DNA of 64,000 nt from the IMG/VR virus record IMGVR_UViG_3300021963_006848, positions 33,039 to 97,038 of that record. One strand, written 5' to 3'. A program made the position numbers and the translations under genes. The DNA comes from a virus. Below are positions 24,738 to 48,441 of the stretch, piece after piece. Numbering within the stretch: position 1 is the first letter of the stretch; each line of letters opens with the position of its first letter. The notes below the pieces were generated by a model. The model was not told where the DNA came from. It was given only the letters and a program-made list of their open reading frames with translations, and searched no databases.

Positions 24738-24738
24738 A

Positions 24739-25257
24739 TTATTTTATAAAATTTAAAATTTGATCTACTCTTTGCATAGGTGAACCAGTTATAGTTAAGT
24801 AAGGTTGTCTAACTGTTTCTAATTCTGATTTAAAACGTTCATCTATCTTCTTTCTCCACTCTTCATTAACACTTCTCACTCCATCATCTACTGATTCGAA
24901 TTCAATAGGAAAATAAACATAATGTGTGTATTCTCCTTTGATTCTATTCCAAGTATCTTGAATAAAGTCATGAGTACCTCTATCTATACCATCCATGAAA
25001 CAAGTATAAACTAAAACGTCCATATAGCATCTATCTAAGACTAAGTTATAAGGCTTAAGTAAAGCTTCTAAGTGAAAAGAACTAATAGCTAACTGAGTAG
25101 CATCACTGCCATACTCGTTAATAGGAAAACCATAACTTGCTACAGTTCGAGTAGATTCATTTATAAACTCATACTTAGGTAATTTATTCTTAAGAAGCTC
25201 ATATACCGTAGTCTTACCTGTGCTACTTGCTCCTACTAATGCTATTCTTTTTATCAT
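24739..25257 (-). CDS. P-loop AAA_28-type ATPase/kinase
   Basis: 172-residue P-loop protein. Walker A is GASSTGKTT (residues 9-17); YNLVLDRCYMDVLVYTCF near 70-87 resembles the D-R-x nucleoside-kinase/NadR-like region that binds a small phosphorylated substrate. This AAA_28/NadR-like family occurs in many phages. Within this operon it lies between the formyltransferase and queF genes with 1-4 base spacing, so a role in handling a nucleoside or cofactor for the modified base is possible. No direct evidence for the substrate. Confidence 0.65.
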   Translation of the reverse strand: MIKRIALVGASSTGKTTVYELLKNKLPKYEFINESTRTVASYGFPINEYGSDATQLAISSFHLEALLKPYNLVLDRCYMDVLVYTCFMDGIDRGTHDFIQDTWNRIKGEYTHYVYFPIEFESVDDGVRSVNEEWRKKIDERFKSELETVRQPYLTITGSPMQRVDQILNFIK

Positions 25258-25820
25258 GACAAAACTACTTTTAAAAACTTATACCACATATACAATGCCT
25301 TATCTCTTAATGTAAGATAAAAAGCTCGTTCATCCAACCCTTCTTGTAAAAATTCTTCATAATCTATAACCTCTCCTTCGTCAACTCCAGCAGTTACTTT
25401 ATGTAAAACTGCTCCTGCAGTTACATACTGCTTATACGATCTTTCTTGAGGATCTTTACCTTTTAATTCTGGATACTTTGTAATTAGTCCTGGGTGTCCG
25501 TTAAAGATTCTATATCTATCACAAATCTCAGGAGGCATTACTCTCAACCACCCGTGCAAGGTAACTACTAGTTTCTCAGGAGGAGCTAAATGACTAAATA
25601 GGTACTCGTAATCCTGTAATGTAGGTTTATTCGGAGTTACATAGAAAAAAGGTAATTTTAGTATCCTCTCATCTACCTTACGTAAATGTTCTGGTCTTTC
25701 ATTAGTTACAATCAAATTAGGCCATCTACCTAATTTCTCAGACAATGCTACTATCTCAGAACCTGTTTGAGAGAAGAAAGCTACCCACTGATTGCTAGTA
25801 TTTGGTTGATCCGTTTGCAA
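25254..25820 (-). CDS. dpdN: Formyltransferase, likely dPreQ1 N-formyltransferase (DpdN-like)
   Basis: 188-residue PurN/Fmt-fold formyltransferase. The catalytic triad of the family is present: Asn107 and His109 in FNGHPGLITKYP and Asp147 in AGVDEGEVI, with GAVLHKV (136-142) as the second conserved strand. It overlaps dpdA by 26 bases and is followed by a kinase-like gene and queF. A dPreQ1 formyltransferase named DpdN has been proposed for phages whose DNA carries 7-(formylamino)methyl-7-deazaguanine; context makes that the best reading. An alternative is a PurN-like purine enzyme, but 188 residues with a divergent N-terminus next to dpdA argues against it. Confidence 0.68.
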   Translation of the reverse strand: MQTDQPNTSNQWVAFFSQTGSEIVALSEKLGRWPNLIVTNERPEHLRKVDERILKLPFFYVTPNKPTLQDYEYLFSHLAPPEKLVVTLHGWLRVMPPEICDRYRIFNGHPGLITKYPELKGKDPQERSYKQYVTAGAVLHKVTAGVDEGEVIDYEEFLQEGLDERAFYLTLRDKALYMWYKFLKVVLS

Positions 25821-26598
25821 ATTGTCTAAATCTTTGAATGTTAAATAATACCTTACTTACGTCTTCTACATTAGCATTAATCATCTCAAATAATTTTTGA
25901 GACTCTTTATCCCATAAACCTTCTTCTTTATACTCAATCCCTTTAATACCATGAACTACCGGGTTAGACGTATCTAGTGAATAAATCCAGTCGTAATTTG
26001 CATGCTTATAGAATGCAAACTCTTGAGGTAATCCACATCCAAGTAAATGGTGAGGTTTATCTACATTAATAACACCGTCTTTGAGTAGATCTCCAAGTAA
26101 CTTCACACGTCCTAACATCCAGCTAACATACTTATTAGGATGTGGTACTGATTGTGTATAATACGAGTAGTCAAAAGATATAGCTATCATATCTACGTTA
26201 GCTACCTTATCCATATGTTGATAACATTCAACTATCTGCTTATATGTTCTTCCTTGAACTACCCCTATCTTTTTATTTTTAATTTCCGAGTACTTACTAT
26301 TCCACATATCCATAGAAGCCATAGTTTTAACACTATCTTCTAATACGTCTGGCACTATATACCAAGTAGGGTTTAGTTTCTTAATCCACCATGCAAATTC
26401 TTCTGAATCAAATGCATTTCCTAATTCAAAAATAGAATTATCTAGAATTACCTCTCTACCTTTCTCAATAGCATCATAAAATAAGTCATAGTACTCATAA
26501 TCTTCTGCAAATAAATGCACTAAAGCATAATCGTAGTCTGTATACTGTTGAACAGTTTCAAAAATACTTTTTGGAGATTCGTGAGCTATCTTAATCAT
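25795..26598 (-). CDS. dpdA: DNA guanine transglycosylase DpdA (TGT-like)
   Basis: 267-residue TIM-barrel transglycosylase that swaps guanine in DNA for a 7-deazaguanine. LDNSIFELG (residues 52-60) corresponds to the substrate-binding D-[NS]-G/S of tRNA-guanine transglycosylases, VPDVLEDS (82-89) holds the second Asp, GVVQG (112-116) is the G-x-[VI]-Q-G motif, HLLGCGLPQ (184-192) matches H-L-L-G-I/C-G, and SLDTSN (207-212) the nucleophile region S-x-D-S/T. There is no Cys3-His zinc site of bacterial Tgt. It is flanked by the small gene 26591-26785 (8-base overlap) and the formyltransferase gene. Confidence 0.82.
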   Translation of the reverse strand: MIKIAHESPKSIFETVQQYTDYDYALVHLFAEDYEYYDLFYDAIEKGREVILDNSIFELGNAFDSEEFAWWIKKLNPTWYIVPDVLEDSVKTMASMDMWNSKYSEIKNKKIGVVQGRTYKQIVECYQHMDKVANVDMIAISFDYSYYTQSVPHPNKYVSWMLGRVKLLGDLLKDGVINVDKPHHLLGCGLPQEFAFYKHANYDWIYSLDTSNPVVHGIKGIEYKEEGLWDKESQKLFEMINANVEDVSKVLFNIQRFRQFANGSTKY

Positions 26599-26785
26599 TT
26601 GTTATATCGTTTAGAGTTTTTTGAACATCTTGCAATTGCTCTGCTAACTTGTCAAGTAAATCATCTGCTTGCTTTGTTAGGTCAACATTATTTAACAGAG
26701 AAATAACTGCCGATAAGGGCACCATTTCAGTCTGGTATGCTTGTACATAGACAGCATGCTTTTTTATATCTTCTATTAACGACAT
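26591..26785 (-). CDS. Small helical protein, 64 aa
   Basis: 64-residue acidic, helical protein; the second half (LTKQADDLLDKLAEQLQDVQKTLND) is a heptad-like coiled coil. Its stop overlaps dpdA by 8 bases and its start shares one base with the mazG-like gene, so it is translated with the operon. It may be a structural partner or a small regulator of one of the neighbours. Not recognised. Confidence 0.6.
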   Translation of the reverse strand: MSLIEDIKKHAVYVQAYQTEMVPLSAVISLLNNVDLTKQADDLLDKLAEQLQDVQKTLNDITND

Positions 26786-27255
26786 TAGAAAAACTTTTTT
26801 AGATTTGGTTTAAAATAATTTACCGACTTCATTACCTTTCTATCTCTAGTTCGGTATACAATATAGAAGTCTCCTACCTTCTCGTAATGACAAGGCTCTC
26901 CTTGCTGCTCAGAGCGTATATTAACAGTCTCGATAGCCTCTTCTTCTGACTTACAAGCTTTAGACATATTAGATGCTTGAACTTCCGCATAAGCGTCATT
27001 AAACTTATCTTTAAGTCCGTGTAACATTACACCATTACCTAACGATACGTAAGTAATATCACATAAAGCATCTAATACTTCTACAATATCACCTTTCTCA
27101 CATGCTTCTTTATACTCTTCTAGTTCTTCTAGAATAAAGTTATATACAAATTCCCACTCTTTACGTTCAGGTATAACTGGGGTATAGTTATTTGGTTTAC
27201 CGAAGGTAGCGTTAAACAGCTCTACTTCGTTCACAAAAGGTACGTTATTTTTCAT
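26785..27255 (-). CDS. MazG-like/PRA-PH superfamily NTP pyrophosphatase
   Basis: 156-residue all-alpha NTP pyrophosphatase. FILEELEEYKEACEKGD (about residues 38-54) supplies E-E-x-x-E and EVLDALCDITYVSLG the second acidic pair (D-x-x-D), the metal site of the superfamily. The C-terminal 50 residues (HYEKVGDFYIVYRTRDRKV) form an extra strand-rich tail. First gene of the dpd operon, it might remove non-modified or noncanonical (d)NTPs. Its ATG at 27255 lies 4 bases from the -7 element, so the message is probably leaderless. Confidence 0.72.
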   Translation of the reverse strand: MKNNVPFVNEVELFNATFGKPNNYTPVIPERKEWEFVYNFILEELEEYKEACEKGDIVEVLDALCDITYVSLGNGVMLHGLKDKFNDAYAEVQASNMSKACKSEEEAIETVNIRSEQQGEPCHYEKVGDFYIVYRTRDRKVMKSVNYFKPNLKKFF

Positions 27256-27259
27256 ATAC

Positions 27260-27291
27260 TTAATTTACGAAATTAATCAATAGGAAGCAAC
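27260..27291 (-). promoter_or_regulatory. Promoter of the mazG-dpdA-queF operon
   Basis: GTTG (27291-27288), 20-base spacer ending TTTCG, TAAATTAA (27267-27260) on the minus strand, directly after the folE stop. The operon it starts runs to the terminator at 23523-23553. Confidence 0.7.
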
Positions 27292-27294
27292 TTA

Positions 27295-28005
27295 TTAGTT
27301 GCGACATTTTCCTGCTAATTCTATATTCTTATAGAACTCAGCTCTACAAGAATCTTCTTTTAAAAATGCTCCTGAAAGTTTAGCTGTCTGCATTGAAGCA
27401 CCATTATGTTTAGTACCTCGGCAAGATACACAATTGTGTGTTGCATCTACCATTACAGCTACTCCTTCGTTACCTTCGCAGATCTTATCAATAGCATGAT
27501 GAATAGCTACTGTTAATTGCTCTTGGATAGCTCCTCGACGACCGAAGTATTCTACAATACGGTTTAGTTTAGATAATCCAATAACCTTACCGTCTTTACC
27601 TGGAATATAAGCTACACTAACTCGACCTTGAATAGTCTGGTGATGATGTGAACACATCGAAGTTAAAGGAATGTTACTTTCCTGTACTAATCCGTCATAA
27701 CCGTCTGATGGGAATGCTGTAATTTCTGGTGGTGCTGAGAATCGACCTGCCCATAGGTCATTTACGTATGCTTTTGCTACTCGACGTGGAGTATCAGATG
27801 AGTTTGGATCATTTCTCCAATCACACCCTAAAGCATCTAAGAACTTACCGAATGCTTCTGCAGCGTTTGAGATAATTTCATATTTCTCAGAGTCGGTAAG
27901 ATGAACATCTACCATTTTACTAATTTTTTGCTTTTCAGCTAACTGTGTGGATAAACCATTTGCGTAACCTGCTTCGGTTACCTCTAACGAATACTTCTTC
28001 TTCAT
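27295..28005 (-). CDS. folE: GTP cyclohydrolase I FolE
   Basis: 236-residue enzyme making dihydroneopterin triphosphate from GTP, the first step to 7-deazaguanines. CSHHHQTIQGRVSVAYIPG (residues 118-136) carries zinc ligands Cys118 and His121; GLSKLNRIVEYFGRRGAIQEQLT (143-165) is the family signature; HNCVSCRG has the third ligand Cys192. The N-terminal 30 residues are extra. It is a single-gene unit with its own promoter and a leader that carries a 26-base element shared with the queD-queE operon. Confidence 0.93.
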   Translation of the reverse strand: MKKKYSLEVTEAGYANGLSTQLAEKQKISKMVDVHLTDSEKYEIISNAAEAFGKFLDALGCDWRNDPNSSDTPRRVAKAYVNDLWAGRFSAPPEITAFPSDGYDGLVQESNIPLTSMCSHHHQTIQGRVSVAYIPGKDGKVIGLSKLNRIVEYFGRRGAIQEQLTVAIHHAIDKICEGNEGVAVMVDATHNCVSCRGTKHNGASMQTAKLSGAFLKEDSCRAEFYKNIELAGKCRN

Positions 28006-28016
28006 TTTATATGTTT

Positions 28017-28042
28017 GTTTTTAAAGTGGTGCTACGACACTA
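28017..28042 (-). repeat. 26-bp leader repeat, copy 1 (folE leader)
   Basis: An exact 26-base match to 31311-31336. On the minus strand it begins TAGTGTCGTAGCACC and ends TTTAAAAAC; AGTG and CACT can pair around a 9-base loop, followed by an A-rich tail. It fills the folE 5' leader, ending 12 bases before the ATG. The other copy is in the leader of the queD-queE operon. Size, hairpin and A-rich tail recall class I preQ1 riboswitches, but the known consensus is not matched exactly. Confidence 0.75.
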
Positions 28043-28049
28043 CTATAAC

Positions 28050-28081
28050 TTAATTTACGAAAACTTTGCTTAAGATCCAAA
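28050..28081 (-). promoter_or_regulatory. folE promoter (TTTG-N20-TAAATTAA)
   Basis: TTTG at 28081-28078, 20-base spacer ending TTCG, TAAATTAA at 28057-28050, minus strand. This copy has the full Bacteroidota -33 box TTTG. Start of transcription is predicted near 28045, immediately before the repeated leader element. Confidence 0.72.
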
Positions 28082-28504
28082 TTATTTCAAGTAATCTTGA
28101 ACGTAATCACTGTCTTTATTTTCCCAGGGGAATACTAACCATCTAGCATCATCGATTAACTCGCAATACTTATCCGGAACGTACTTACTATTATGCCTAA
28201 ATGCTAATGATAAAGTTAAAAATTCATAAGCATCAATTTCTGCAAAAGTAATACCTGTATCGCATATATCATCTACTACTAGAGTTTTATGTCTCAGTCG
28301 AGTAGGTAGTAATTTAGCGTCTGCTAAACTTATATAATTAATTTTGTACCTATGTGAAATTAGAACTGCAGGAATTAAACCTCCTCTAGGTAAACCTGTA
28401 ACGTATGCTATAGGTTCTTGACAATCTAGCCACATTCCAATTTTATCAATTTGACTCTCCACCCACTCCCAGGTAAGGTCTCTTGTAATAATTACTTCTC
28501 TCAT
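28082..28504 (-). CDS. Type I phosphoribosyltransferase
   Basis: 140-residue PRTase. KTLVVDDICDTGITFAEI (residues about 72-89) is the PRPP-binding motif of type I phosphoribosyltransferases, and YVTGLPRGGLIPAVLISH near 34-51 supplies the flexible-loop/diphosphate region G-x-x-R-G-G. It is short, like hypoxanthine/xanthine PRTases. It overlaps the upstream gene by 4 bases and ends just before the folE promoter. It may salvage purines or act on a 7-deazapurine base; the second idea rests only on its place at the end of the queD-queE operon. Confidence 0.75.
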   Translation of the reverse strand: MREVIITRDLTWEWVESQIDKIGMWLDCQEPIAYVTGLPRGGLIPAVLISHRYKINYISLADAKLLPTRLRHKTLVVDDICDTGITFAEIDAYEFLTLSLAFRHNSKYVPDKYCELIDDARWLVFPWENKDSDYVQDYLK

Positions 28505-28899
28505 TTATTAGAAGTAGTGTAGCTAATTGAACTTCCGGACGGATATCCTAAAGTAGTTGATGTTTTTGTAAATGGCGGTGTAGCATATGTAATTGAACCA
28601 CCACCCGGTGTTGTTGTAACTACTGCCTGCGTAGTACATGTTCCTGATAATCCTATCGGGTTAGTAAGTGGTACATCTCCTACATAAAATGGATTTACCT
28701 TATGAGGTTCTTGCCATCTTGGATATGATTCATGTACTCTAAAAGTGTTGTGATCTGAAATGATACCTCCAAGTGGTATTGAATCGTCTACTTCTTTTAA
28801 CTTATCTTTTAATGCATCCCATTGTTTTGGAGTTGGTGCGTACTCGTGGCAAGCTTCTACAAAACCTTGCATCCATGTAACAAATTCTTTTGATGTCAT
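28501..28899 (-). CDS. Hypothetical phage protein, 132 aa
   Basis: 132-residue protein. Residues 1-45 are helical (FVTWMQGFVEACHEYAPTPKQWDALKDKL shape), a module I have seen in many short phage proteins without function. The C-terminal 50 residues are Gly/Ser/Thr-rich with TTPGGGSITYATPP and YPSGSSISYTT, which look disordered and repeat-like. Co-directional and 4 bases overlapping with the phosphoribosyltransferase gene. Confidence 0.6.
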   Translation of the reverse strand: MTSKEFVTWMQGFVEACHEYAPTPKQWDALKDKLKEVDDSIPLGGIISDHNTFRVHESYPRWQEPHKVNPFYVGDVPLTNPIGLSGTCTTQAVVTTTPGGGSITYATPPFTKTSTTLGYPSGSSISYTTSNK

Positions 28900-28904
28900 A
28901 ACTT

Positions 28905-29504
28905 TTAATTACAATTTATTTTATATTCTTGCCATTTTTTAGTAGGCGGTTGATTCGGAAAATAATAACATTCAGTTTTACCGCTCTTAGTAAATTTAAT
29001 TACTTTATAAAATGCATCAGGTACTGTGGCATTTGTAGGTAGTTTGATAGACTTATCGCTGAAAATTGCTCTAACTGTTACTTCTAACACTTCTGTATCT
29101 GCCCATACTCTCTCTTGTGCTTCCAATAGTCGCCACTCTCCTCTATTTAATCTTTCATTCTGTAAAGCAGAATTTAGATAGGTAAAAGTCTGTTTTAAGT
29201 TCTCTTTGGAGTCGGTAAAATGTGCAGCAGGAGCCATATGTCCTTTATCGTATATGTTTGCTGCGTAGTCATTATTATCAGATGTATGGTAATCTTTCTC
29301 TGTGTAGAAATCTAACCCTTTTCTATCTGCTACTTTTACTATAGGTCTTGCAGTGTATTTAACCCAGAGAGGCTGTTCTTTAGTCTCTGAATACATTACT
29401 TCAAATATTGGAGTTTTAACTAGTACTGAATCTCGTAATTGCCCGTAAGCAGTTGTTAATGTTAATAAAAATGCTAAAAGAAGCAAATTCGATTTTCTTC
29501 CCAT
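28905..29504 (-). CDS. Exported DNA/RNA non-specific endonuclease (NUC1-like)
   Basis: 199-residue secreted nuclease of the beta-beta-alpha-metal family. Signal peptide residues 1-21 (LLLLAFLLTLTTAYGQ) with Bacteroidota-style cleavage before Gln. YDKGHMAPAAHF near 88-99 is the D-R-G-H catalytic motif with Lys in place of Arg; FTYLNSALQNERLNRGEWRLLE has the magnesium-binding Asn and the N-R-G-x-W-x-x-L-E signature. It would act in the periplasm or outside. Its place in the queD-queE operon is unexpected; degradation of incoming or host-released DNA is a plausible inference. Confidence 0.8.
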   Translation of the reverse strand: MGRKSNLLLLAFLLTLTTAYGQLRDSVLVKTPIFEVMYSETKEQPLWVKYTARPIVKVADRKGLDFYTEKDYHTSDNNDYAANIYDKGHMAPAAHFTDSKENLKQTFTYLNSALQNERLNRGEWRLLEAQERVWADTEVLEVTVRAIFSDKSIKLPTNATVPDAFYKVIKFTKSGKTECYYFPNQPPTKKWQEYKINCN

Positions 29505-29764
29505 CTGTAATTGTTTAACTGTTTATAATCGGTTTCTGATAAAATTGTAACATTTTGAGTATCTACAGGATGTTCATCTATGTAGTTAATTAACTCTAGG
29601 AAAGTTACAGGACCAAATTCTATTTCGTCGTAATCTTCTGTTATTAAGTGAAGGTTACCGTTCTGTACTTTATAATCCCATACAATCAAACCATCTACTA
29701 GTATTTCAACATCTCCCATGTTGTCTATACCCACTTCAAATTTTAATATATCTTCTAAGTTCAT
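29474..29764 (-). CDS. Hypothetical acidic protein, 96 aa
   Basis: The start at 29764 (MNLEDILKFEVGIDNMGD) is chosen over an upstream ATG at 29845 that would run through queE; the CTATTTATA motif at 29771-29779 precedes this ATG. The protein is acidic and alternates short strands (DVEILVDGLIVWDYKV), with the C-terminus overlapping the nuclease gene by 31 bases. No motif is recognised. Confidence 0.55.
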   Translation of the reverse strand: MNLEDILKFEVGIDNMGDVEILVDGLIVWDYKVQNGNLHLITEDYDEIEFGPVTFLELINYIDEHPVDTQNVTILSETDYKQLNNYRWEENRICFF

Positions 29765-29770
29765 AGTAAA

Positions 29771-29779
29771 TATAAATAG
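29771..29779 (-). promoter_or_regulatory. CTATTTATA motif, putative late promoter
   Basis: Minus-strand CTATTTATA ends 6 bases before the ATG at 29764, inside the queE-proximal spacer. Copy of the recurring candidate element; so close to the ATG that a transcript would be leaderless. Confidence 0.35.
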
Positions 29780-29783
29780 AGGT

Positions 29784-30566
29784 TTACACAGCTCTCTTGG
29801 TATCAAAAGCAATAATATGCTCTCTACCTGTAAATCGGTATGCATTTTGAGTACACCATTCTATAACTAAAGGATATACTCTAATTAGCTCTTGACGATT
29901 ATCTCCTGGAGGCATTATAATTACCTTATTTTTAGGTATCTCTAACTCATCCAACCAAGCTCTTGTCTCTAACCATTCTTCAGGTCTCTCTACTGGATTA
30001 GCTACGATTTTAACGTGGTAATCTTTATGGTATGCCAATGTCTCTTTAATTGCTTCTTTATTGAGACGATGCCTGTTGTGCGTGTCAATAAGCTTCTGGT
30101 CCGTAACTGCACCTTGAGGAGTAAGTACCCCCAATACAGGCACACTATTGGTAAACTTAGGACTAAGACTAATAAGGTCAATAGGATAGTCGGTAGCGAG
30201 GAAATGGCTCCCTTCAGTCTCGATGGTAATAATGATACCTCTTTCATGAGCAAAATGTGTTAATTCGTTAACTAAAGCTGGATGCATTGTTGGTGAACCC
30301 CCTGTTAACATCATCTCCTTCACTTCTGGGTTCTCATCGTATATCTTAACGATATCGTTGAAATTATAAATACCTTTTTCTGGATGTATACTGGTATACC
30401 AAGAGTCACACCATCCGCCTTCTCCAAAGTAACAACGGTGAGTACAACCTGTAGTTCTAATTGCTACAGTTGGGTAGCCAGCTCTTGAACCTTCTGATTG
30501 TACGCAAGTGTACAATTCTACGATAGGTAACTTTTTACTATAATCTGTAATTCTTCCTAAACTCAT
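29784..30566 (-). CDS. queE: 7-carboxy-7-deazaguanine synthase QueE (radical SAM)
   Basis: 260-residue radical SAM enzyme converting 6-carboxy-tetrahydropterin to 7-carboxy-7-deazaguanine. The cluster ligands are Cys41, Cys45 and Cys53 in GCTHRCYFGEGGWCDS, with five residues inserted compared with the compact C-x3-C-x2-C form; MMLTGGSPTMHP and IETEGSHF (near 90 and 118) are the SAM and substrate loops. KIVANPVERPEEW and MPPGDNRQEL close the barrel. It follows queD by 11 bases. The inserted cluster loop is as I recall typical of phage QueE. Confidence 0.9.
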   Translation of the reverse strand: MSLGRITDYSKKLPIVELYTCVQSEGSRAGYPTVAIRTTGCTHRCYFGEGGWCDSWYTSIHPEKGIYNFNDIVKIYDENPEVKEMMLTGGSPTMHPALVNELTHFAHERGIIITIETEGSHFLATDYPIDLISLSPKFTNSVPVLGVLTPQGAVTDQKLIDTHNRHRLNKEAIKETLAYHKDYHVKIVANPVERPEEWLETRAWLDELEIPKNKVIIMPPGDNRQELIRVYPLVIEWCTQNAYRFTGREHIIAFDTKRAV

Positions 30567-30577
30567 TATTTTTTATT

Positions 30578-31039
30578 TTATGCTTGATAAGATGCAGAAT
30601 TTCTTTCGTGTTCGTAAACTTCTACTTTTACAGCTTTTACTCGTCCTTCGGTTTCTGCTTCTAAGAACTCATTAATTTCGTTATACAGATACTCTGCAAA
30701 TCTTTCACATCCTGTTGCAGGAAGTATACGTAACTGTATTATACCGTCTTCATCCATCTGCTTAAAGTTCTCTAAATATGGATCATCCTCTGCTACTATT
30801 GTAGTATGGTCTAATAAGTAGTTAAAGAAGTCTTTAGGTGAACTACCGTACATAGTAGTCTTTGCTCTCTTCATTCCACCAAAGTCCCATACCCAGTTAC
30901 GTTCGTCTAATTCTCCTTCGAACCATACTCTAAAAGATACTGCGTATCCATGTAAATACTTACAGTGAGTTCCTTCTGCTTTCCATTGACGAAAACAAGT
31001 AGAGTATCCGTCAAATAATTTTGTTGATTGAAATTTCAT
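30578..31039 (-). CDS. queD: 6-carboxy-tetrahydropterin synthase QueD, divergent
   Basis: 153-residue QueD-like pterin synthase, the second step to 7-deazaguanines. The catalytic Cys26, LHGY (29-32), DFGG (52-55), LDHT (76-79), LPATGCERFAEYLY and VEVYEHERNSASY match the family. Of the three zinc His, only His30 is plain: the first position reads Phe (CFRQW) and the HGH motif reads HGY. Cys15 or His79 might compensate. It is second in an operon with the small membrane protein and queE. Confidence 0.85.
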   Translation of the reverse strand: MKFQSTKLFDGYSTCFRQWKAEGTHCKYLHGYAVSFRVWFEGELDERNWVWDFGGMKRAKTTMYGSSPKDFFNYLLDHTTIVAEDDPYLENFKQMDEDGIIQLRILPATGCERFAEYLYNEINEFLEAETEGRVKAVKVEVYEHERNSASYQA

Positions 31040-31049
31040 ATTGTATAAT

Positions 31050-31304
31050 TTAAACTAATTCTTCGTAAATTCCAACTAGTTCGGAAACAATTAACAATAC
31101 GGCTGCAATCTCTATTGAAAAAAATAGAGCTACATATCCTGCAATCCTAATACCGGATTTAAGGAAACTTACTAGTTGGTGTTTTTTTGGATCGGGAAGT
31201 TTTTGACCTTTTATTACTAAATCGTCATAAAAAGTTACTGCAGGTTTTACTTTTTTACCTTTCAGATTTCGAGATGCGTGTACTACATCATGCGGGTTTG
31301 TCAT
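31050..31304 (-). CDS. Small membrane protein, 84 aa
   Basis: 84-residue protein: a basic N-terminus (NPHDVVHASRNLKGKKVKP), then one or two hydrophobic helices at about residues 48-80 (IRIAGYVALFFSIEIAAVLL) and an acidic end. First gene after the promoter at 31347-31378, it is led by the 26-base leader repeat. Its presence at the head of the queD-queE operon does not imply a modification role. Not recognised. Confidence 0.65.
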   Translation of the reverse strand: MTNPHDVVHASRNLKGKKVKPAVTFYDDLVIKGQKLPDPKKHQLVSFLKSGIRIAGYVALFFSIEIAAVLLIVSELVGIYEELV

Positions 31305-31310
31305 GGGTGT

Positions 31311-31336
31311 GTTTTTAAAGTGGTGCTACGACACTA
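31311..31336 (-). repeat. 26-bp leader repeat, copy 2 (queD-queE operon leader)
   Basis: Exact copy of 28017-28042, in the same orientation and leader position, 6 bases before the ATG at 31304. The bases flanking the two copies differ, so conservation is limited to the leader element. Candidate shared regulatory RNA or operator for the deazaguanine genes. Confidence 0.75.
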
Positions 31337-31346
31337 TTGTCTAAAA

Positions 31347-31378
31347 CTAATGTACGAATAATTATCTTACGAAACAAC
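31347..31378 (-). promoter_or_regulatory. Promoter of the queD-queE operon
   Basis: GTTG (31378-31375), 20-base spacer ending TTCG, TACATTAG (31354-31347), minus strand. It drives 31304, queD, queE and the genes to 28082. Confidence 0.7.
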
Positions 31379-31383
31379 TTTTA

Positions 31384-31500
31384 CTAAAAATTCTTATAAA
31401 TAAAAGGGTCTCTTTTTTTTAATTCTTCTATTTTCTTCTTAAACTCTCTTTTCTTTTTCCAGTTTTTGAAAAGTTTCTTTATAGTATCTAAAAATTTCAT
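31384..31500 (-). CDS. Very small basic protein, 38 aa
   Basis: A 38-codon frame starts with an ATG that overlaps the carbamoyltransferase stop (ATGA) and ends at 31384. The protein begins MKFLDTIKKLFKNWKKK and ends KKRDPFIYKNF, strongly basic with an aromatic tail; a similar R/K-D-P-F-I-Y ending occurs in short proteins of T4-like phages, as I recall. The overlapping start argues for translational coupling. It is shorter than most annotation cut-offs. Function unknown. Confidence 0.55.
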   Translation of the reverse strand: MKFLDTIKKLFKNWKKKREFKKKIEELKKRDPFIYKNF

Positions 31501-33176
31501 TTGTGTTTCATTTTAATAATGAGGTAGTTATCTATTACAAGAAAATCCATCTTACTATCTAAAAATCTCTCTACTGCTTGCTTTGGTGTTATAGTAATTG
31601 TCTGATCCTTAAAATTAAAAGATGTATTTAAACATATAGGATAACCTGATATACGTTTCAATGCTAAAAGCAATTGGTAATACCTTGGGTTTTGTTCTTT
31701 AGTAACTGTTTGAACTCTTGCTGTATTATCAATATGAGTAATAGAAGGTAGTCTGTGGTTCTTTTTAACTTCTACAACTTGATTCATATAAGGTACCGGT
31801 TCTTTTATATCGAAAAATATTTTAGCGTCTTCTTCTATACATGAAGGAGCGAAAGGTCTAAAGCTTTCTCTCTTTTTGATAACTTTGTTGATTTTATCTT
31901 TAATACCTGGATGAAGAGGTGAAGCAAGTATAGACCTATTACCTAGAGCTCTTGCTCCAAATTCCATATTACCTTGGAACCATCCTACTATATTCCCGCT
32001 ATGGATTATAGATGCTACCTTATTCAGAAGTCTCTCTTCTGTAGGGTATCTAAAGTAGTATATCTTGTTACCAAAGTACTCTAATTGAGTACGTATACTT
32101 ACTTCATTGAAAGAAGGACCTGTGTAAGGAACGCTATTATCCTTTCTAGGACCTTTATAAGATGCTAAGCATGCACCAATAGCAGAACCTGCATCTGAAG
32201 GTGCAAATGGTATGTGGATTGATGAATAATGTTTATATGCTTTTGTGTTAGCTAATCCATTATACGCACATCCGCCTCCTAAACAGAGATTATCAGAATT
32301 AACTAATTCTTTAGCTTTCTCTAGAATTCTATTAAACTGCTTTTCGTAAATAAACTGTACAGCTGCTGCTAGATCATAATCATCTTGTGTAATTTCATCT
32401 TCCGGAAGGCGAGGACCTCTACCTAATACATTACATAGGTCAGAAGTAAACATTATCTTATCTGAATACTCCCAAGTAAAGTATTCTGGGTAAAATGAAA
32501 AAATTGATTCTTTTTCGAATTTAAAAAGCTTATGAAGGAATGGAACATACTTACTAGCATCTCCATATCCAGCCATACCCATAACTTTGTACTCACCTTC
32601 GTTAGGTTTGAAGCCAAGAAATGCGGTAAAGGTAGAGTAGAATAATCCTAAAGATTCTGGGAAGTTAATAGCAAATACTTTTTCTATAGAACTATCTTTT
32701 GCTTTTGAAATTGTAACTGTTTCAAACTCTCCAACTCCGTCTATAGTTACAACTGCCGCTTCTTTGTAAGGGCTAGTAAAATAGGAAAATGCTGCGTGAG
32801 ATAAATGGTGTTCAACATACCTAACAGGGCCTTGGTATAGGAAATGTTTTGCTAATAAAAAGTTAGGATTGTGAAGTTCTTTTCTCTCTTTGAGAAATTT
32901 TAATCTTCTAAAGAATGTACGAAAAGGATATTTGTTAAAAGATTTGAGTACTCTTGCTCTCTTTAATTCTGGAATCTCATACCAGCAAACTTCGTCAATG
33001 TCGTTTATTGTAAGTTTACTTGCTCTTAAAACCCATTTGATCGCATCTACTGGAAAACTATCGTCATGTTTGATACCTGATAGCTTTTCTTGTTCAATGG
33101 CATAAAGAACCTTACCGTCTTTAACGATGCATGCTGCAGAGTCGTGGTAAAATGCTGAAATGCCTAGTTGTATCAT
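31497..33176 (-). CDS. O-carbamoyltransferase (NodU/CmcH family)
   Basis: 559-residue carbamoyltransferase transferring a carbamoyl group from carbamoyl phosphate, through carbamoyl-adenylate, to a hydroxyl, often on a sugar. The Kae1-like N-terminal domain has GISAFYHDSAACIV (residues 4-17), EQEKLSGIKHD and the metal-binding HHLSHAAFSYF near 121-131; the YrdC-like C-terminal part has GARALGNRSIL and YPICLNTSFN. One of three such genes here; it is 50-60 residues longer and diverged from the other two. A CTATTTATA element lies 6 bases upstream of the ATG. It is upstream of the small 38-aa gene. Confidence 0.88.
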   Translation of the reverse strand: MIQLGISAFYHDSAACIVKDGKVLYAIEQEKLSGIKHDDSFPVDAIKWVLRASKLTINDIDEVCWYEIPELKRARVLKSFNKYPFRTFFRRLKFLKERKELHNPNFLLAKHFLYQGPVRYVEHHLSHAAFSYFTSPYKEAAVVTIDGVGEFETVTISKAKDSSIEKVFAINFPESLGLFYSTFTAFLGFKPNEGEYKVMGMAGYGDASKYVPFLHKLFKFEKESIFSFYPEYFTWEYSDKIMFTSDLCNVLGRGPRLPEDEITQDDYDLAAAVQFIYEKQFNRILEKAKELVNSDNLCLGGGCAYNGLANTKAYKHYSSIHIPFAPSDAGSAIGACLASYKGPRKDNSVPYTGPSFNEVSIRTQLEYFGNKIYYFRYPTEERLLNKVASIIHSGNIVGWFQGNMEFGARALGNRSILASPLHPGIKDKINKVIKKRESFRPFAPSCIEEDAKIFFDIKEPVPYMNQVVEVKKNHRLPSITHIDNTARVQTVTKEQNPRYYQLLLALKRISGYPICLNTSFNFKDQTITITPKQAVERFLDSKMDFLVIDNYLIIKMKHK

Positions 33177-33181
33177 ACTCT

Positions 33182-33190
33182 TATAAATAG
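33182..33190 (-). promoter_or_regulatory. CTATTTATA motif, putative late promoter
   Basis: Minus-strand CTATTTATA ends 5 bases before the carbamoyltransferase ATG at 33176. Copy of the recurring candidate element; a transcript starting just downstream would be leaderless. Confidence 0.35.
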
Positions 33191-33214
33191 AACTTTATTA
33201 TTTTTTACTAGACG

Positions 33215-33288
33215 TGGACCAACCTGGGCTCGAACCAGGGACCTACTGATTATGAGTCAGTTGCTCTAACCAACTGAGCTATAAGTCC
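33215..33288 (-). tRNA. tRNA-Met (CAU), elongator type
   Basis: Minus-strand cloverleaf of 74 nt with anticodon stem ACTGA/TCAGT and loop CTCATAA (anticodon CAU), T arm CCTGG-TTCGAGC-CCAGG, acceptor GGACTTA paired with TTGGTCC (one mismatch), discriminator A. The D arm AGCTCAGTTGGTTAGAGC and the G1 start match elongator Met tRNAs and not initiator. A lysidine-type tRNA-Ile cannot be ruled out. No encoded CCA. Confidence 0.88.
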
Positions 33289-33300
33289 AAGTACCTACCA

Positions 33301-33358
33301 GATGAATATTTTATCCCCATATGGGCCACGGCCATTAAGTGCGTTACTTTCATTCATC
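33301..33358 (-). ncRNA. Structured RNA segment between tRNAs
   Basis: Minus-strand GATGAAT (33358-33352) pairs with ATTCATC (33307-33301) to close a multibranched segment containing AAGT-AACGC-ACTT, GGCC-GT-GGCC and CCCATATGGG. It lies between the tRNA-like RNA and tRNA-Met. Could be a processing signal or part of a longer RNA. Confidence 0.35.
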
Positions 33359-33392
33359 GGCCATCACACAGTTTCACTGCTTAAGGTAAGTG

Positions 33393-33561
33393 CTGTAGAG
33401 GAAGGAGTCGAACCTTCACGCGGCGATTCAATAAATGACATTCTTGCTAGCTAGCGTGTGGTCAACCCATTATCATTTATCTATCTCTTATCCGCACCCT
33501 CGAGACGGGAGGGCATGTCTGCCACGACCGGGGACACCCCAATCCATTCCACCACTCTACA
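33393..33561 (-). ncRNA. Giant tRNA-like RNA (169 nt), Leu-type body
   Basis: The 7-bp acceptor TGTAGAG/CTCTACA, discriminator G, and T arm GAAGG-TTCGACT-CCTTC are perfect, and T-G-G-T-G-G-A-A at the D arm with GACATG matches the neighbouring tRNA-Leu. A 22-nt hairpin (GATTGGGG-TGT-CCCCGGTC) is inserted in the D loop, and the variable arm is stretched to about 80 nt with GCGG/CCGC and ATAAATGA/TCATTTAT helices. The anticodon stem CCCTC/GAGGG has loop CCGTCTC, so position 33 is C, not U. Probably not an ordinary tRNA. Confidence 0.65.
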
Positions 33562-33577
33562 ATAAAAAAAAGAAACG

Positions 33578-33663
33578 TACCTCGAGCCAGAGTCGAACTG
33601 GCACGGGCGTTTCTGCCCACAAGATTTTAAGTCTTGCATGTCTACCTATTTCATCATCGAGGC
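33578..33663 (-). tRNA. tRNA-Leu (UAA)
   Basis: 86-nt class II tRNA on the minus strand: acceptor GCCTCGA/TCGAGGT (G-U at the end), anticodon stem CAAGA/TCTTG with loop CTTAAAA (anticodon UAA), long variable arm GGGC-AGAAAC-GCCC, T arm GCCAG-TTCGACT-CTGGC, discriminator A. The CGTACC/GGTACG flank extends the acceptor pairing. Directly after the large ncRNA. Confidence 0.93.
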
Positions 33664-34559
33664 AGGTACGTTAATTTTAAGTAAGCCTGAGACTACAGCT
33701 CTAACGCTAGATCTTTTGAGGTATTATCTTAATTCCCCTCTTGTCCAGAGACTTTTGATCTCTATTCTAGCAATGCTGGTTATTTAGGTGAACCACTCCT
33801 TGAGCTACTTATTATTTGGACTACTCTCTCCCTACTCGTCTCTATTCAAATCTGCCGACCTGATTAACCCTTGCGAGGCTATAGAACTTTCTAGAGAATC
33901 ACTCTTGACTTGCGATCTTAAGTGGCACTGAACAGCTCAGTACTATGTAAGCATCTTTCGTCCGTAGCTGGCAAGCGCTTTTGCTTTTATGATTATGTAT
34001 TTTTGAAAATGCAATAATTCAAAAGTTAGCGACTTGTGGATTGTAAAGGTAGCGGCCTGCCCTAAGCTCTCTTAACTTTTGATCAAGAGAATACTTAACT
34101 ACCTTTTGAAGTGTCCCCACCTCCATACTTTAAGATATCTTCATAACTAACATCTTGGTAGATGCTTGCTAAGGTAGATAACAGCACCACCTGTACACCT
34201 ACTTGCCTTTCAGCTTTAAGATACCTCTTATATTGAGCAACGCAATAATATACTTGGATAAGTATACTTCTTGCAAATACCCTACAGGTTAATCTTATTA
34301 CTCTTCCGAGCTCAACTAAACGACCCACATCGCCTAGTCACTAAACCACTTTCCCTAAAGTGTTACCCTCAGTACTTAAGGTTTAATGATACCCTGCTTG
34401 CATACTTAAGCTCTTGCGAGCCGCAAACTACCTCAGTCAAAGCAGTTCACTTTACACCGGTTTCCCGGTTTATTTACCGACTATATGCCGCCGAATGTTA
34501 TTTATGATTTAGCCGAAGCTTCATCAATGGATAACAATGTTTTCAAAGAACGTTTTATT
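33664..34559 (-). ncRNA. Candidate large ornate non-coding RNA (~0.9 kb)
   Basis: No convincing protein is encoded in these 896 bases; they run from a promoter (34564-34595) straight into tRNA-Leu. The RNA has a boxA-like sequence GTTCTTTGAAAAC at its start, GNRA-capped hairpins ACCGG-GAAA-CCGGT (34456-34469) and GCTC-GCAA-GAGC (34410-34421), a stem CACTTT/AAAGTG (34347-34362) and many shorter stems. GOLLD and ROOL RNAs of phages and prophages share the size, structural richness and position next to tRNAs. The family is not identified; a new class is possible. Confidence 0.7.
34539..34552 (-). promoter_or_regulatory. boxA-like antitermination motif
   Basis: Minus-strand CGTTCTTTGAAAAC, about 8 nt into the predicted large RNA transcript, matches the rRNA leader boxA (T-G-T-T-C-T-T-T-G-A-A-A-A-C) bound by NusB-S10. 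It would let RNA polymerase read a long, untranslated, structured transcript. Confidence 0.6.
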
Positions 34560-34563
34560 TAAT

Positions 34564-34595
34564 TTAAGATAAGAACTTTATTTCGTATCTCCAAC
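34564..34595 (-). promoter_or_regulatory. Promoter of the large RNA-tRNA transcript
   Basis: GTTG (34595-34592), exactly 20 bases, TATCTTAA (34571-34564), minus strand. The -7 box is preceded by TTCT, not TTCG. It sits in the gap after the 75-aa gene (stop at 34600) and points into the non-coding region. Confidence 0.65.
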
Positions 34596-34599
34596 TAAT

Positions 34600-34827
34600 T
34601 TAGTAAATTTTATTTTCCTGATTTCTTCTAGCTTCTTCTGCTTCTTTGTACATATTAATCCATGTCAAAGATACATCTACAGGAGCTAAAACCCAAGCCA
34701 TAACTAAAACCATAATTGAGTCTAGTTCTGGAGAATTACCCATACTATCTACACCAACTCTTTTATACTTTTTATGTAATTGTATAAAACAGTAAATGAT
34801 ACAAATGATATAGTAGGGGACAAACAT
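34600..34827 (-). CDS. Small membrane protein, 75 aa
   Basis: 75-residue protein with a hydrophobic N-terminus (residues 2-18, FVPYYIICIIYCFIQLH) and a second helix near 38-57 (IMVLVMAWVLAPVDVSLTW), then a charged tail (EAEEARRNQENK). Its promoter lies 18 bases upstream. Positive residues between the helices suggest a hairpin in the inner membrane. Holin or superinfection-related roles fit the size, but nothing specific can be claimed. Confidence 0.6.
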   Translation of the reverse strand: MFVPYYIICIIYCFIQLHKKYKRVGVDSMGNSPELDSIMVLVMAWVLAPVDVSLTWINMYKEAEEARRNQENKIY

Positions 34828-34844
34828 ATAACTTCTTATTTAAT

Positions 34845-34876
34845 TTAATATACGAACGTTAGTTCTAAATTGCAAC
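34845..34876 (-). promoter_or_regulatory. Promoter (GTTG-N20-TATATTAA)
   Basis: GTTG at 34876-34873 and TATATTAA at 34852-34845 on the minus strand with a 20-base spacer ending TTCG. ATG of the 75-aa gene at 34827. Best example of the consensus in this window. Confidence 0.75.
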
Positions 34877-34885
34877 TTTTTTTTA

Positions 34886-35092
34886 TTAAAATTTTCCCGG
34901 CCTGAAATAGGGTATATAAGCTTTTCCTCTAATAGCACGTTGCTGATTGAAAGGGTGTGTTCTGAAGTAATACCCTCTGATTTTGTTTCGATGGTTCCAT
35001 AGTCGCTTTTCATGAATCGACATTTTCATTGGCATCCATACACAGCTACTTAGTAGTAATATAACACTCATTAATAATAATAACTTTTTCAT
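34886..35092 (-). CDS. Small lipoprotein, 68 aa
   Basis: 68-residue protein with a lipoprotein signal: residues 1-17 MKKLLLLMSVILLLSSC, lipobox L-S-S-C at Cys17. The mature part is very basic and aromatic (RLWNHRNKIRGYYFRTH). Phage lipoproteins often block superinfection or act as outer spanins; this one is too short for a coiled-coil spanin, so superinfection exclusion is a guess. Follows the epimerase gene by 2 bases. Confidence 0.65.
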   Translation of the reverse strand: MKKLLLLMSVILLLSSCVWMPMKMSIHEKRLWNHRNKIRGYYFRTHPFNQQRAIRGKAYIPYFRPGKF

Positions 35093-35094
35093 AA

Positions 35095-35940
35095 TTATAA
35101 CTGTTTAATGTATTCTAGTAATCTGTCTTCTGGTTGCCATCCAAGTCTTTCTATGGCGTCTTTATTTTCTCTTAAAGTCTCTCTGTAGTTACCTTTTTGT
35201 TCTCTCATGTAGACTTTAACGCAGTTAAATTTTTCTACAAACATATTAGCAACTTGATTTATAGAGTAATTTTTACCTGTTCCTAATTCCCAAGCATCTT
35301 CGTGTTTTTCATCACTCTCTGCAACTTTAATTAATCCATCTACAATATCTCTTATATGAGTGAAATCTCGTCTCTGTTCTCCATCACCTACTATGGTGAT
35401 AGGGTAGTTTTTAGCAACTTGACCTCTCCATCTACCTATAACTGCTGCCCAATCTCCTTCTAAAATTTCATTAGGTCCGTATACATTGTAGAATCTTACA
35501 ATTTCAGCATCTAAGTTAAACACCTGCTTATACATCTTTATAATTTCTTCCCCCATGTGTTTAGAACATGCATATGGAGACTGCAAAGGGTTATGCCATC
35601 TAGAAGAAGATCCTGCATATATAACTTTAGCTTCTATTTGATGAGCAAACTTACATACATCCAAAGTTCCTTGAGTATTAACTCTAAAGGTTTCTTGTGG
35701 GTTAGCAAAGGAAGGCTGTATTCTACTTAAAGCAGCTAAGTGATAGATAAGATCGAAATCTTTATCCATTAAGTCTATTCGCTCTATATCACCATACCAG
35801 TAATGGCAACCTGGGATTTCGTATTCTTTAAACCCTACAGAAAGGTCATCTAATGAAGTGACAGAATGTCCTTCTATTACCAACCTTTTTATAAGGTTAC
35901 TTCCTACAAATCCATTTCCTCCAGTAACTAATATCTTCAT
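35095..35940 (-). CDS. NAD-dependent nucleotide-sugar epimerase/dehydratase
   Basis: 281-residue extended SDR enzyme. The start at 35940 (MKILVTGGNGFVGSNLI) gives the family's T-G-G-x-G-F-V-G NAD-binding loop at the N-terminus; an earlier ATG at 35988 would extend into tRNA-fMet. YHLAALS (about 72), YAGSSS and the active-site SPYACSKHMGEE (Tyr-x3-Lys) and IVRFYNVYGPNE are present. Similar to UDP-glucose 4-epimerase/dTDP-glucose dehydratase; its product could feed the glycosyltransferase operon. Exact substrate unknown. Confidence 0.8.
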   Translation of the reverse strand: MKILVTGGNGFVGSNLIKRLVIEGHSVTSLDDLSVGFKEYEIPGCHYWYGDIERIDLMDKDFDLIYHLAALSRIQPSFANPQETFRVNTQGTLDVCKFAHQIEAKVIYAGSSSRWHNPLQSPYACSKHMGEEIIKMYKQVFNLDAEIVRFYNVYGPNEILEGDWAAVIGRWRGQVAKNYPITIVGDGEQRRDFTHIRDIVDGLIKVAESDEKHEDAWELGTGKNYSINQVANMFVEKFNCVKVYMREQKGNYRETLRENKDAIERLGWQPEDRLLEYIKQL

Positions 35941-35955
35941 ATAAACCTTATCTAG

Positions 35956-36027
35956 TTGCGGGAGAAGGATTCGAACCTCCGACCCCAAGGTTATGAGCCT
36001 TGTGAGCTACCTCTGCTCTATCCCGCG
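35956..36027 (-). tRNA. tRNA-fMet (CAU), initiator
   Basis: 72-nt minus-strand tRNA starting CGCGGGA and ending CCCGC-A-A, so position 1 (C) faces A72, the unpaired end that marks initiator tRNAs. Anticodon stem AAGGC.. with loop CTCATAA and three G-C pairs below (GGCTCATAACC), T arm GGAGG-TTCGAAT-CCTTC. A phage-encoded initiator tRNA is uncommon. Immediately upstream of the epimerase start. Confidence 0.88.
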
Positions 36028-36035
36028 ATATAATG

Positions 36036-36108
36036 TACTCCGTAGGGGTTTCGAACCCCTAATCTCCTCCGTGAAAGGGAGGCGACTTAACCGTTTGTCC
36101 AACGGAGC
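36036..36108 (-). tRNA. tRNA-Glu (UUC)
   Basis: 73-nt minus-strand tRNA: acceptor GCTCCGT/ACGGAGT, anticodon stem CCTCC/GGAGG with loop CTTTCAC (anticodon UUC), T arm AGGGG-TTCGAAA-CCCCT, discriminator A. Fits tRNA-Glu closely. Seven bases separate it from the tmRNA. Confidence 0.92.
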
Positions 36109-36115
36109 GGAATTG

Positions 36116-36498
36116 TGGAGATGGAGGGAGTCGAACCCTCGTCCAAATACGGATTTAATAAACCTCATTCACAAGCTTAGTTAATTTTTCTAAATTAACA
36201 AAATATAAAGTTTGATAAATGTGGGAACCAAACTTTCAAACAACCTGGTCTCGAAATTATTTAATAGAGCTCCGACCTGTTACTCCAACTCTCACTTCTT
36301 TTTAAATTCCCATGAGTGATACGGGAAAGATTAGGCAGCTACTGCGTAATCAGCACCTACGAAAGCCATAGCGTCTTCGAAAGTGAAAGAAGATAATTCT
36401 TCTGCGTTTATTGTTTGATAGGTGTTTAAGGATTTCCATCTAATCCTGCTTGCATCAATTGTACCAACTCATCGTACCTGTCAAAACCGGGCATCCCC
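36116..36498 (-). ncRNA. ssrA: Phage tmRNA (ssrA)
   Basis: 383-nt transfer-messenger RNA. The 5' end GGGGATGCCCGGTTTTGACA and 3' end GAGGG-TTCGACT-CCCTC-CATCTCCA make the tRNA-Ala-like half (GGGGATG pairs with CATCTCC). The tag frame starts at GCA 36405 after TAAAC and stops at TAA 36331-36333; it encodes 24 residues beginning AEELSSFTFE and ending GADYAVAA, longer than the usual 8-15 but with the small-hydrophobic end recognised by ClpXP-like proteases. CCA is not encoded. Confidence 0.92.
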
Positions 36499-36503
36499 AA
36501 TTG

Positions 36504-36575
36504 AGCTTCCTCGAGGAATCGAACCCCGTTATCCTGAGTACAAATCAGGCGCATCACCATTTATGCTTAGGAAGC
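36504..36575 (-). tRNA. tRNA-Thr (UGU)
   Basis: 72-nt minus-strand tRNA: acceptor GCTTCCT/AGGAAGC, anticodon stem CCTGA/TCAGG with loop TTTGTAC (anticodon UGU), T arm CGGGG-TTCGATT-CCTCG, discriminator T. Five bases from the tmRNA 5' end, so the four RNAs Thr-tmRNA-Glu-fMet are probably one precursor. Confidence 0.92.
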
Positions 36576-36619
36576 AATTTAGGAAAGGAGAAGATGGTTG
36601 CGTGGACATCTCCTTTTAT

Positions 36620-36708
36620 GATTGGCATTACTTAGGTGTATTTTTCCCAACTCCGATGATACCCGCCAAAATACACTCTCGAGCCATTGATACCATCATT
36701 CCCCAATC
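36620..36708 (-). ncRNA. Structured RNA candidate upstream of the tmRNA cluster
   Basis: Between the lipoprotein gene (36725) and tRNA-Thr, minus-strand GATTGG (36708-36703) pairs with CCAATC (36625-36620) and encloses GTGTATTTT/AAAATACAC (36676-36668 with 36644-36636). A further weak stem GGAGATG/CATCTTCTCC lies at about 36577-36613. May be a leader for the tRNA-tmRNA precursor, or a degenerate tRNA. Confidence 0.35.
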
Positions 36709-36724
36709 AACCTAAAAGGTTTTT

Positions 36725-36913
36725 TTACTTTACTTCAGTTTCAGCTTTTGGAGCTTCTTCAGCAGGAATTTCTGCTACTGTAGAATCTGTTGCTGTTACT
36801 GCAGCTGTATCTACTGCTACTGCTGTTGAGTCTGTTGCTACTGCTTCTGATTTACCGTTACCGCATGATGCTAATGTAACTACTAAAGCTGTTGCTAAGA
36901 TTACTTTTTTCAT
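36725..36913 (-). CDS. Small lipoprotein, Ala/Thr/Val-rich, 62 aa
   Basis: 62-residue lipoprotein: signal MKKVILATALVVTLASC with lipobox L-A-S-C at Cys17, then G-N-G-K-S and a low-complexity tail of Ala, Val, Thr, Ser, Asp and Glu (VATDSTAVAVDTAAVTATDS). The Bacteroidota lipoprotein export signal often has acidic residues after Cys+2; here Lys-Ser follow, so final location is uncertain. A CTATTTATA element lies 35 bases upstream. Function unknown. Confidence 0.68.
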   Translation of the reverse strand: MKKVILATALVVTLASCGNGKSEAVATDSTAVAVDTAAVTATDSTVAEIPAEEAPKAETEVK

Positions 36914-36947
36914 AATTGTTTTTGTTTTTGTTTAAATTTACTGATAT

Positions 36948-36956
36948 ATAAATAGT
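36948..36956 (-). promoter_or_regulatory. CTATTTATA motif, putative late promoter
   Basis: Minus-strand CTATTTATA lies 35 bases ahead of the lipoprotein ATG at 36913, directly after the queC stop. Copy of the recurring element. Confidence 0.4.
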
Positions 36957-37796
36957 TTACTTGATATGTTCTGCTAAAACTTTTTCTACATGGGATTTAG
37001 CTACTTCCCATTCAACTGGTCCTGTCTCGTCTTCGTATTGAACAGGATCTTTACGGCCCAACTTAATAAAAGCTTCAATACGCTCCACAGAGCTAGCAGA
37101 CTTATAGTCGCTATTACCAGAAGGGTAAGGCTTATATGAAGTGTTAGTTCTCTTGTACACCTCATCAAAGTCCAAACCGAGTGTTTCACATGCTTTAAGT
37201 CCATCTTCTAGAATACCAAATTTATCTGTATCTAAATAGGGAGTATAAAACTTAACACGTTCTGCATCCCAGTTACCAATTCTAAATGCTTCCATATCTG
37301 CATCTCTAAACTCTTGACGACAGTCAGGGTAGATTGCATGATCTCCAGCATGAATACCTAGAGAAATAAAGGTATCTTCTTTTGTTTCGTTCGCTACTGA
37401 TAAAGCTACTGCTTGTACTAATGAACTAAAGATCTTATTACGATTAGGTACAACAGTATCTTTCATGTTATCTTGTTCGTAATGACCTTCCGGTACATCT
37501 TTACCTCCTTCAACTAATGCTGAGTTTAGTAGTTCTTTCAACCCATCTAATTTAATAATCTGATGTGTTGGTGGGAGAAAAGAATAATTCTTATCGTTAT
37601 CAAACGGTGGATGCATAGCATTCCATATCTCATTAATATACTCTACTAATGATGTTGCACGTTCTAACTCTACTCTATGTTTCTGACCGTAATCAAAAGA
37701 CAAAGTAGTAACTCTGTAGCCATTTGCTAACAAATGTAGTAATAAAGTAGAGGAGTCCATCCCTCCAGATAAGGACAATACAGCATTCTTCGCCAT
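36957..37796 (-). CDS. queC: 7-cyano-7-deazaguanine synthase QueC, without zinc ribbon
   Basis: 279-residue PP-loop ATPase that converts 7-carboxy-7-deazaguanine to preQ0. The PP loop LSLSGGMDSSTLLLHLL is at residues 7-23, SFDYGQKHRVEL near 33, VVPNRNKIFSSL near 120 and ALSVA/IYPDCRQEFRDAD near 140-170. The C-terminal four-Cys zinc site of ordinary QueC is missing: the segment reads YKRTNTSYKPYPSGNSDYKS where C-Y-...-C-x2-C-x2-C is expected. It is separate from the other deazaguanine genes, next to the RNA cluster. Confidence 0.86.
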   Translation of the reverse strand: MAKNAVLSLSGGMDSSTLLLHLLANGYRVTTLSFDYGQKHRVELERATSLVEYINEIWNAMHPPFDNDKNYSFLPPTHQIIKLDGLKELLNSALVEGGKDVPEGHYEQDNMKDTVVPNRNKIFSSLVQAVALSVANETKEDTFISLGIHAGDHAIYPDCRQEFRDADMEAFRIGNWDAERVKFYTPYLDTDKFGILEDGLKACETLGLDFDEVYKRTNTSYKPYPSGNSDYKSASSVERIEAFIKLGRKDPVQYEDETGPVEWEVAKSHVEKVLAEHIK

Positions 37797-47617: not shown

Positions 47618-47624
47618 TTAACTA

Positions 47625-48398: not shown

Positions 48399-48408
48399 CT
48401 TTCTTTAT

Positions 48409-48439: not shown

Positions 48440-48441
48440 CT

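Follow-up and report, generated by a model that had tools for sequence, protein, structure and literature searches.

The window analyzed here is a 64,000-nucleotide stretch of DNA that represents bases 33039–97038 of a 97,038-base IMG/VR virus record. On its minus strand, approximately 0.9 kb (34552–33684) contain no credible gene, as the earlier note on this DNA had stated; this region is preceded by a promoter, contains a boxA, and is followed by tRNA genes. The features of this transcription unit, in the order of transcription, are as follows:

34564–34594, minus strand: promoter of Bacteroidota type, with TTG at 34594–34592, a spacer of 20 nt, and TATCTTAA at 34571–34564
34540–34551, minus strand: boxA, an exact GTTCTTTGAAAA, 6–9 nt into the inferred transcript
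34107–34500, minus strand: GOLLD 5′ domain (approximately 0.39 kb), outside the Rfam model, with full-length homology in 120 viral loci and helices that change on both sides
33684–34106, minus strand: GOLLD 3′ domain (RF02032, 271.5 bits, model positions 1–416)
33984–34038, minus strand: variable linker, which varies in length and sequence in the alignment and is enclosed by helix 34060–34056/33975–33971
33984–33983 with 33913–33912, minus strand: contact resembling bridge B7 of GOLLD
33577–33663, minus strand: tRNA-Leu(UAA), called by ARAGORN, 20 nt past the last GOLLD base
33391–33563, minus strand: tRNA-like RNA (TLE) with an acceptor and a T arm at its ends, from a 75-sequence alignment with covariation
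33214–33288, minus strand: tRNA-Met(CAU), called by ARAGORN and Rfam, the final gene of the unit

When 4227 Rfam models were compared with the window, 34106–33684 (minus strand) matched GOLLD (RF02032) over the full model (1–416) with 271.5 bits (gathering score, 150). The 0.9 kb stretch thus almost certainly represents a full-length GOLLD RNA of approximately 875 nt. GOLLD is a giant RNA of phages whose copies assemble into hollow cages as a closed 14-mer, and expression of this class goes up during phage lysis. The earlier note had suggested a member or relative of GOLLD or ROOL, or else a new class. The first of these proposals held, while ROOL was ruled out, as Rfam gave GOLLD and no ROOL match in this region at E ≤ 1; the outright Rfam assignment also disposes of a new RNA class. 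The locus further shows other traits of GOLLD, including a less-conserved 5′ region, a total length of >800 nt, and a variable linker.

To collect relatives, IMG/VR was scanned for two conserved strings and for one gapped string, public phages were searched by blastn, yielding two records of huge phages (of 634 and 642 kb), and nhmmer was run with a profile built from the first 45 relatives. A total of 146 GOLLD loci were obtained, 120 of which are homologous along the whole length; the non-redundant set at 95% contained 78 sequences, the window counted. All of the 20 relative records that were re-checked with the Rfam model scored above its cut-off. Among the relatives listed, the 5′ domain is conserved like the 3′ domain (identity of 64–82% vs. 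59–78%), and the 120 full-length sequences with an alignment of the 5′ domain represent content that is missing from the Rfam model. Six loci are homologous in the 3′ domain only and have another 5′ region, which agrees with published findings that GOLLD diverges in its 5′ region; blastn against phage isolates gave no match for a GOLLD with such a different 5′ region. A strict pattern run over all GTDB contigs had no match, and GOLLD was found in 0 of 198 Bacteroidota genomes, a weak result given that the control genomes were equally silent.

The structure alignment included 77 sequences, and its consensus of approximately 40 helices was extended by covarying pairs outside the consensus. In the resulting 236-pair structure, 95.7% of 18086 cells are paired and 181 of the 236 pairs show changes on both sides, with a covariation score of 0.547; shuffles presented 78.2% paired cells, 134.8 pairs changed on both sides, and a score of 0.210, and none of 500 shuffles reached the observed structure. 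Slid structures had 40–42% of cells paired and scores of 0.075–0.112, a control that is biased in favor of the structure for cells paired, as the structure was derived from the same 77 sequences; the number of both-side changes (3171) is far beyond that in the slid controls (≤608). Covariation among relatives, which the earlier note had looked to as a check, is thus abundant, consistent with the elaborate conserved secondary structure of GOLLD, and GNRA-type loops, which it had also pointed out, are present in hairpins 34472–34453 and 34214–34205, both of which occur in nearly all relatives. Two small ORFs of 77–78 aa lie within the GOLLD region (34095–34328 on the minus strand and 34271–34507 on the plus strand), and one could read the region as encoding small proteins, with the RNA structure being incidental. 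However, stop codons break the minus-strand ORF in 57/76 relatives and the plus-strand ORF in 74/76, and length modulo three differs in 29/77 and 56/77 relatives, respectively; compensatory changes at 181 pairs and the match of the region to GOLLD also argue against this reading, to which we assign a negligible probability. The minus-strand ORF had no Pfam match. Stop codons and shifts of frame among the relatives therefore rule out protein coding; conservation in a protein-coding frame, which the earlier note had named as evidence against an RNA, is absent in both frames.

Two pairings were identified beyond the nested fold (34060–34056/33975–33971 and 33984–33983/33913–33912). The first encloses the variable linker and shows both-side changes in 5/5 pairs (99.2% paired); in the published structure, the GOLLD linker is disordered inside the cage (PMC12286853). 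The second joins the loop of hairpin 33918–33906 to a stretch just past the linker, with 33983–33913 being C-G in 45 and G-C in 31 of the 77 sequences and the other pair being G-C in 75 and U-A in two. By cryo-EM, the L20-J13/15 kissing contact of GOLLD, first spotted by covariation, proved to be an inter-subunit contact (bridge B7; PMC12286853). The independent covariation at 33983–33913 fits this published contact in position and behavior; the conserved B7 contact (L20 with J13/15) was mapped here by position and the description in that paper rather than by alignment to the solved sequence. Covariation of the B7 type suggests the same quaternary assembly, and a cage probably forms in the lineage of the window.

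Transcription from the promoter at 34564–34594 would start at approximately 34560–34557. A sigma-70 scan did not call this promoter, ruling out an E. coli-type promoter; the "perfect" promoter of the earlier note is instead a Bacteroidota-type site. Its motif occurs three times in the window, at the GOLLD site, at 34875–34836, and at 19842–19803 upstream of groEL. Among the 68 relatives with a boxA matching at 10/12 positions or more, which were used for promoter and hairpin counts, a textbook TTG-N18-23-TAnnTTTG site precedes boxA in 43, as compared to 0.9 expected; the promoter is divergent in the clade of the window. Two of the similar promoter copies (34836–34875 and 34555–34594, minus strand) flank a 75-aa ORF (34600–34827), which is absent from the corresponding place in the sister sequence L042 (98.8% identical), where GOLLD lies directly behind the upstream promoter copy; the pattern is as if this ORF had been lost or gained via recombination between the promoter copies. 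The third copy (19803–19842, minus strand) is located upstream of the phage groEL gene (17850–19475).

The exact boxA GTTCTTTGAAAA, located 6–9 nt into the inferred transcript, is present in a single copy in the 64 kb window. Among 77 non-redundant sequences with upstream sequence (window included), a boxA just upstream of GOLLD is exact in 41 and matches at 11/12 positions or more in 56, as compared to 0.2–0.5% in shuffled upstream sequences; the relatives share phylogeny, and these counts do not represent independent events. In approximately nine of the 77, boxA reaches chance level only (≤9/12), and no boxA of the GTTCTTTGAAAA type was found in the six GOLLDs with another 5′ domain. The distance from boxA to the first GOLLD helix is variable (approximately 50–105 nt). 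In 39 of the 68 relatives (1.6 expected), boxA is directly adjoined by a hairpin with 5 bp or more; its stems vary in sequence yet stay paired, and its loops are AACG, AAAG, or AATG (i.e., AANG), as in TCAGGA-AAAG-TCCTGA, CTTGGT-AACG-ACCAAG, and AAATCAGA-AACG-TCTGATTT. This hairpin is absent from the window and its own clade.

In E. coli, the rRNA leader elements include boxB, boxA, and boxC (PMC10250234), of which boxA is the key one for the antitermination of rRNA transcription (PMC10250234, PMC7819879). In 16S rRNA upstream sequences taken from Bacteroidota genomes, a boxA matching at 11/12 positions or more was found within 250 nt upstream of 16S rRNA in 18 of 35 leaders (e.g., GTTCTTTGAAAATATTGAAG), as compared to 0.6% expected. 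Judging by promoter, boxA type, and kin, the phage probably infects a member of the Bacteroidota; the host family is uncertain because those Flavobacteriaceae whose rRNA leaders were examined have a variant boxA, GTTCATTGA. The unit presents the host-type boxA straight after the promoter that characterizes rRNA-type leaders, and GOLLD of these (probably Bacteroidota) phages begins with a promoter-boxA leader like that of host rRNA operons. The leader proposed in the earlier note is borne out in that boxA is conserved across the clade and matches host rRNA leaders. GOLLD itself is a known kind of RNA, and the rRNA-type leader appears to be the new part; a link between GOLLD and boxA was found in no paper, in a search that was thin on subscription papers and preprints, so this novelty is provisional.

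At its other end, GOLLD (last base 33684) continues directly into tRNA-Leu(UAA) (first base 33663), as had been noted previously, with no terminator called on the minus strand; a phage or prophage origin and nearby tRNAs are traits of GOLLD, found here in a virus record with a tRNA at 20 nt. Full flanks were available for 71 sequences, and in 27 of these a tRNA lies no more than 450 nt upstream or 300 nt downstream. Where a tRNA lies downstream, it starts 7–30 nt past GOLLD in 18/20 cases and is in sense orientation in 20/20, with tRNA-Met being the commonest. This spacing and orientation suggest that RNase P creates the GOLLD 3′ end, which we consider rather likely, with the 5′ end of tRNA-Leu as the presumed cut. 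A phage tmRNA with a long tag, AEELSSFTFEDAMAFVGADYAVAA, is located between tRNA genes at 36115–36498 (minus strand), and tmRNA genes recur near GOLLD in the relatives L042, L082, L081, L077, L074, L085, and L028. The region 23823–37796 (minus strand), near the GOLLD unit, also contains QueF and QueC genes (identified by Pfam) as well as FolE-, QueE-, and QueD-like genes (identified by sequence reading), which likely encode a 7-deazaguanine (DNA modification) pathway. Farther along, at 46874–51298 (minus strand), genes encoding proteins that consist largely of repeats (14 protein letters, not shown) adjoin probable tail/adhesin genes.

We infer, with good though not full confidence, that transcription of GOLLD relies on antitermination of the host rRNA type, that RNase P frees the RNA, and that it self-assembles. 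Host RNA polymerase would initiate at the host-type promoter, and boxA in the first nucleotides would bring in NusB-S10 (NusE) of the host, just as it does in rRNA operons. Thus modified, the polymerase would escape Rho termination across the untranslated 0.9 kb and continue into the tRNAs, and it may aid GOLLD folding; a cut by RNase P at tRNA-Leu would release the GOLLD 3′ end, and the freed RNA would self-assemble into a multimeric cage of the kind described for GOLLD.

That boxA works through Nus factors is likely in our view, and two other roles for it were weighed. The boxA-like string could be conserved as an initial-transcribed element of the promoter or as part of the GOLLD fold, unrelated to Nus factors; it lies close behind the promoter and adjoins conserved helices, and it is nearly invariant, so that covariation cannot show its role, and protein binding to it is a prediction. 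However, its distance to the first GOLLD helix is variable (see above), the string equals the host rRNA boxA, and a scan of the alignment gave no strongly covarying partner for boxA, leaving this explanation unlikely. A still less probable explanation is that the GOLLD boxA serves as a decoy that titrates NusB/S10 and shuts down host rRNA synthesis rather than aiding its own transcription. While the boxA of GOLLD is of the very type present in host rRNA leaders and ribosomes bind GOLLD in pull-downs (PMC12286853), there is a single boxA copy per RNA, and it heads a long untranslated unit that runs into tRNAs, the classical position of a cis-acting element. With rRNA-type antitermination as the preferred reading, a leader that is clade-wide and common to host rRNA operons indicates the probable mode of GOLLD transcription, singles out NusB/S10 as candidate partners, and allows a prediction of which host machinery processes GOLLD.

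The same unit carries a second structured RNA, the TLE, between tRNA-Leu and tRNA-Met; neither ARAGORN nor Rfam called it, and it is apparently an undescribed RNA. It was found in approximately 89 IMG/VR contigs (76 distinct sequences of approximately 125–180 nt, e.g., L348:1460-1631 and L114:1800-1957) in phage tRNA arrays, often abutting tRNA-Ser, and GOLLD is also present in 11 of 38 TLE contigs. The fold derived from 75 aligned sequences is a tRNA-like cloverleaf with a long variable arm, in which 23 of the 31 predicted pairs change on both sides. The RNA has an GGCAGACA that is invariant, and its "anticodon" loop consists of seven bases, (C/U)NGUCUC, the anticodon position being followed by a pyrimidine. 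Of 47 distinct variable-arm regions, 35 contain a perfect palindrome of at least 8 nt, as compared to 6% in shuffles. Palindromic loops that change in step have served as an argument for self-pairing of OLE and GOLLD (PMC12286853), and it is possible that the TLE self-pairs through its palindromic hairpin loop; the palindrome may alternatively be a DNA-level one. A broader and more tentative model, which we hold to be somewhat doubtful as a whole, is that these Bacteroidota phages carry a mock rRNA operon, in which an rRNA-type promoter, an AANG hairpin, and boxA would recruit Nus/S10 to protect the transcript and chaperone cage folding, tRNA processing would free the ends, and the same unit would supply a second, tRNA-like RNA that may self-pair via its palindromic hairpin loop.

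Among known systems, the GOLLD RNA env-38 solved by cryo-EM resembles the RNA described here in its full-model 3′ domain, its separate 5′ domain, its length of >800 nt, its phage-borne location beside tRNAs, its variable linker, and its B7-type contact (PMC12286853); the cage was demonstrated on another GOLLD than that of the window. The group of the window differs from GOLLD (RF02032) in having a host rRNA-type leader that consists of a promoter, a hairpin in many relatives, and boxA. ROOL is likewise large, linked to phages and tRNAs, and assembled into a multimeric cage, but the region has no ROOL match at E ≤ 1. In comparison to the leaders of bacterial rRNA operons, which mediate boxB-boxA antitermination (rrnTAC), the GOLLD leader drives a phage RNA, lacks the hairpin in the window, and has putative NusB/S10 binding; the two are alike in their promoter, in many relatives in a boxB-like hairpin upstream, in boxA GTTCTTTGAAAA, and in the long untranslated structured RNA with tRNAs that follows boxA.
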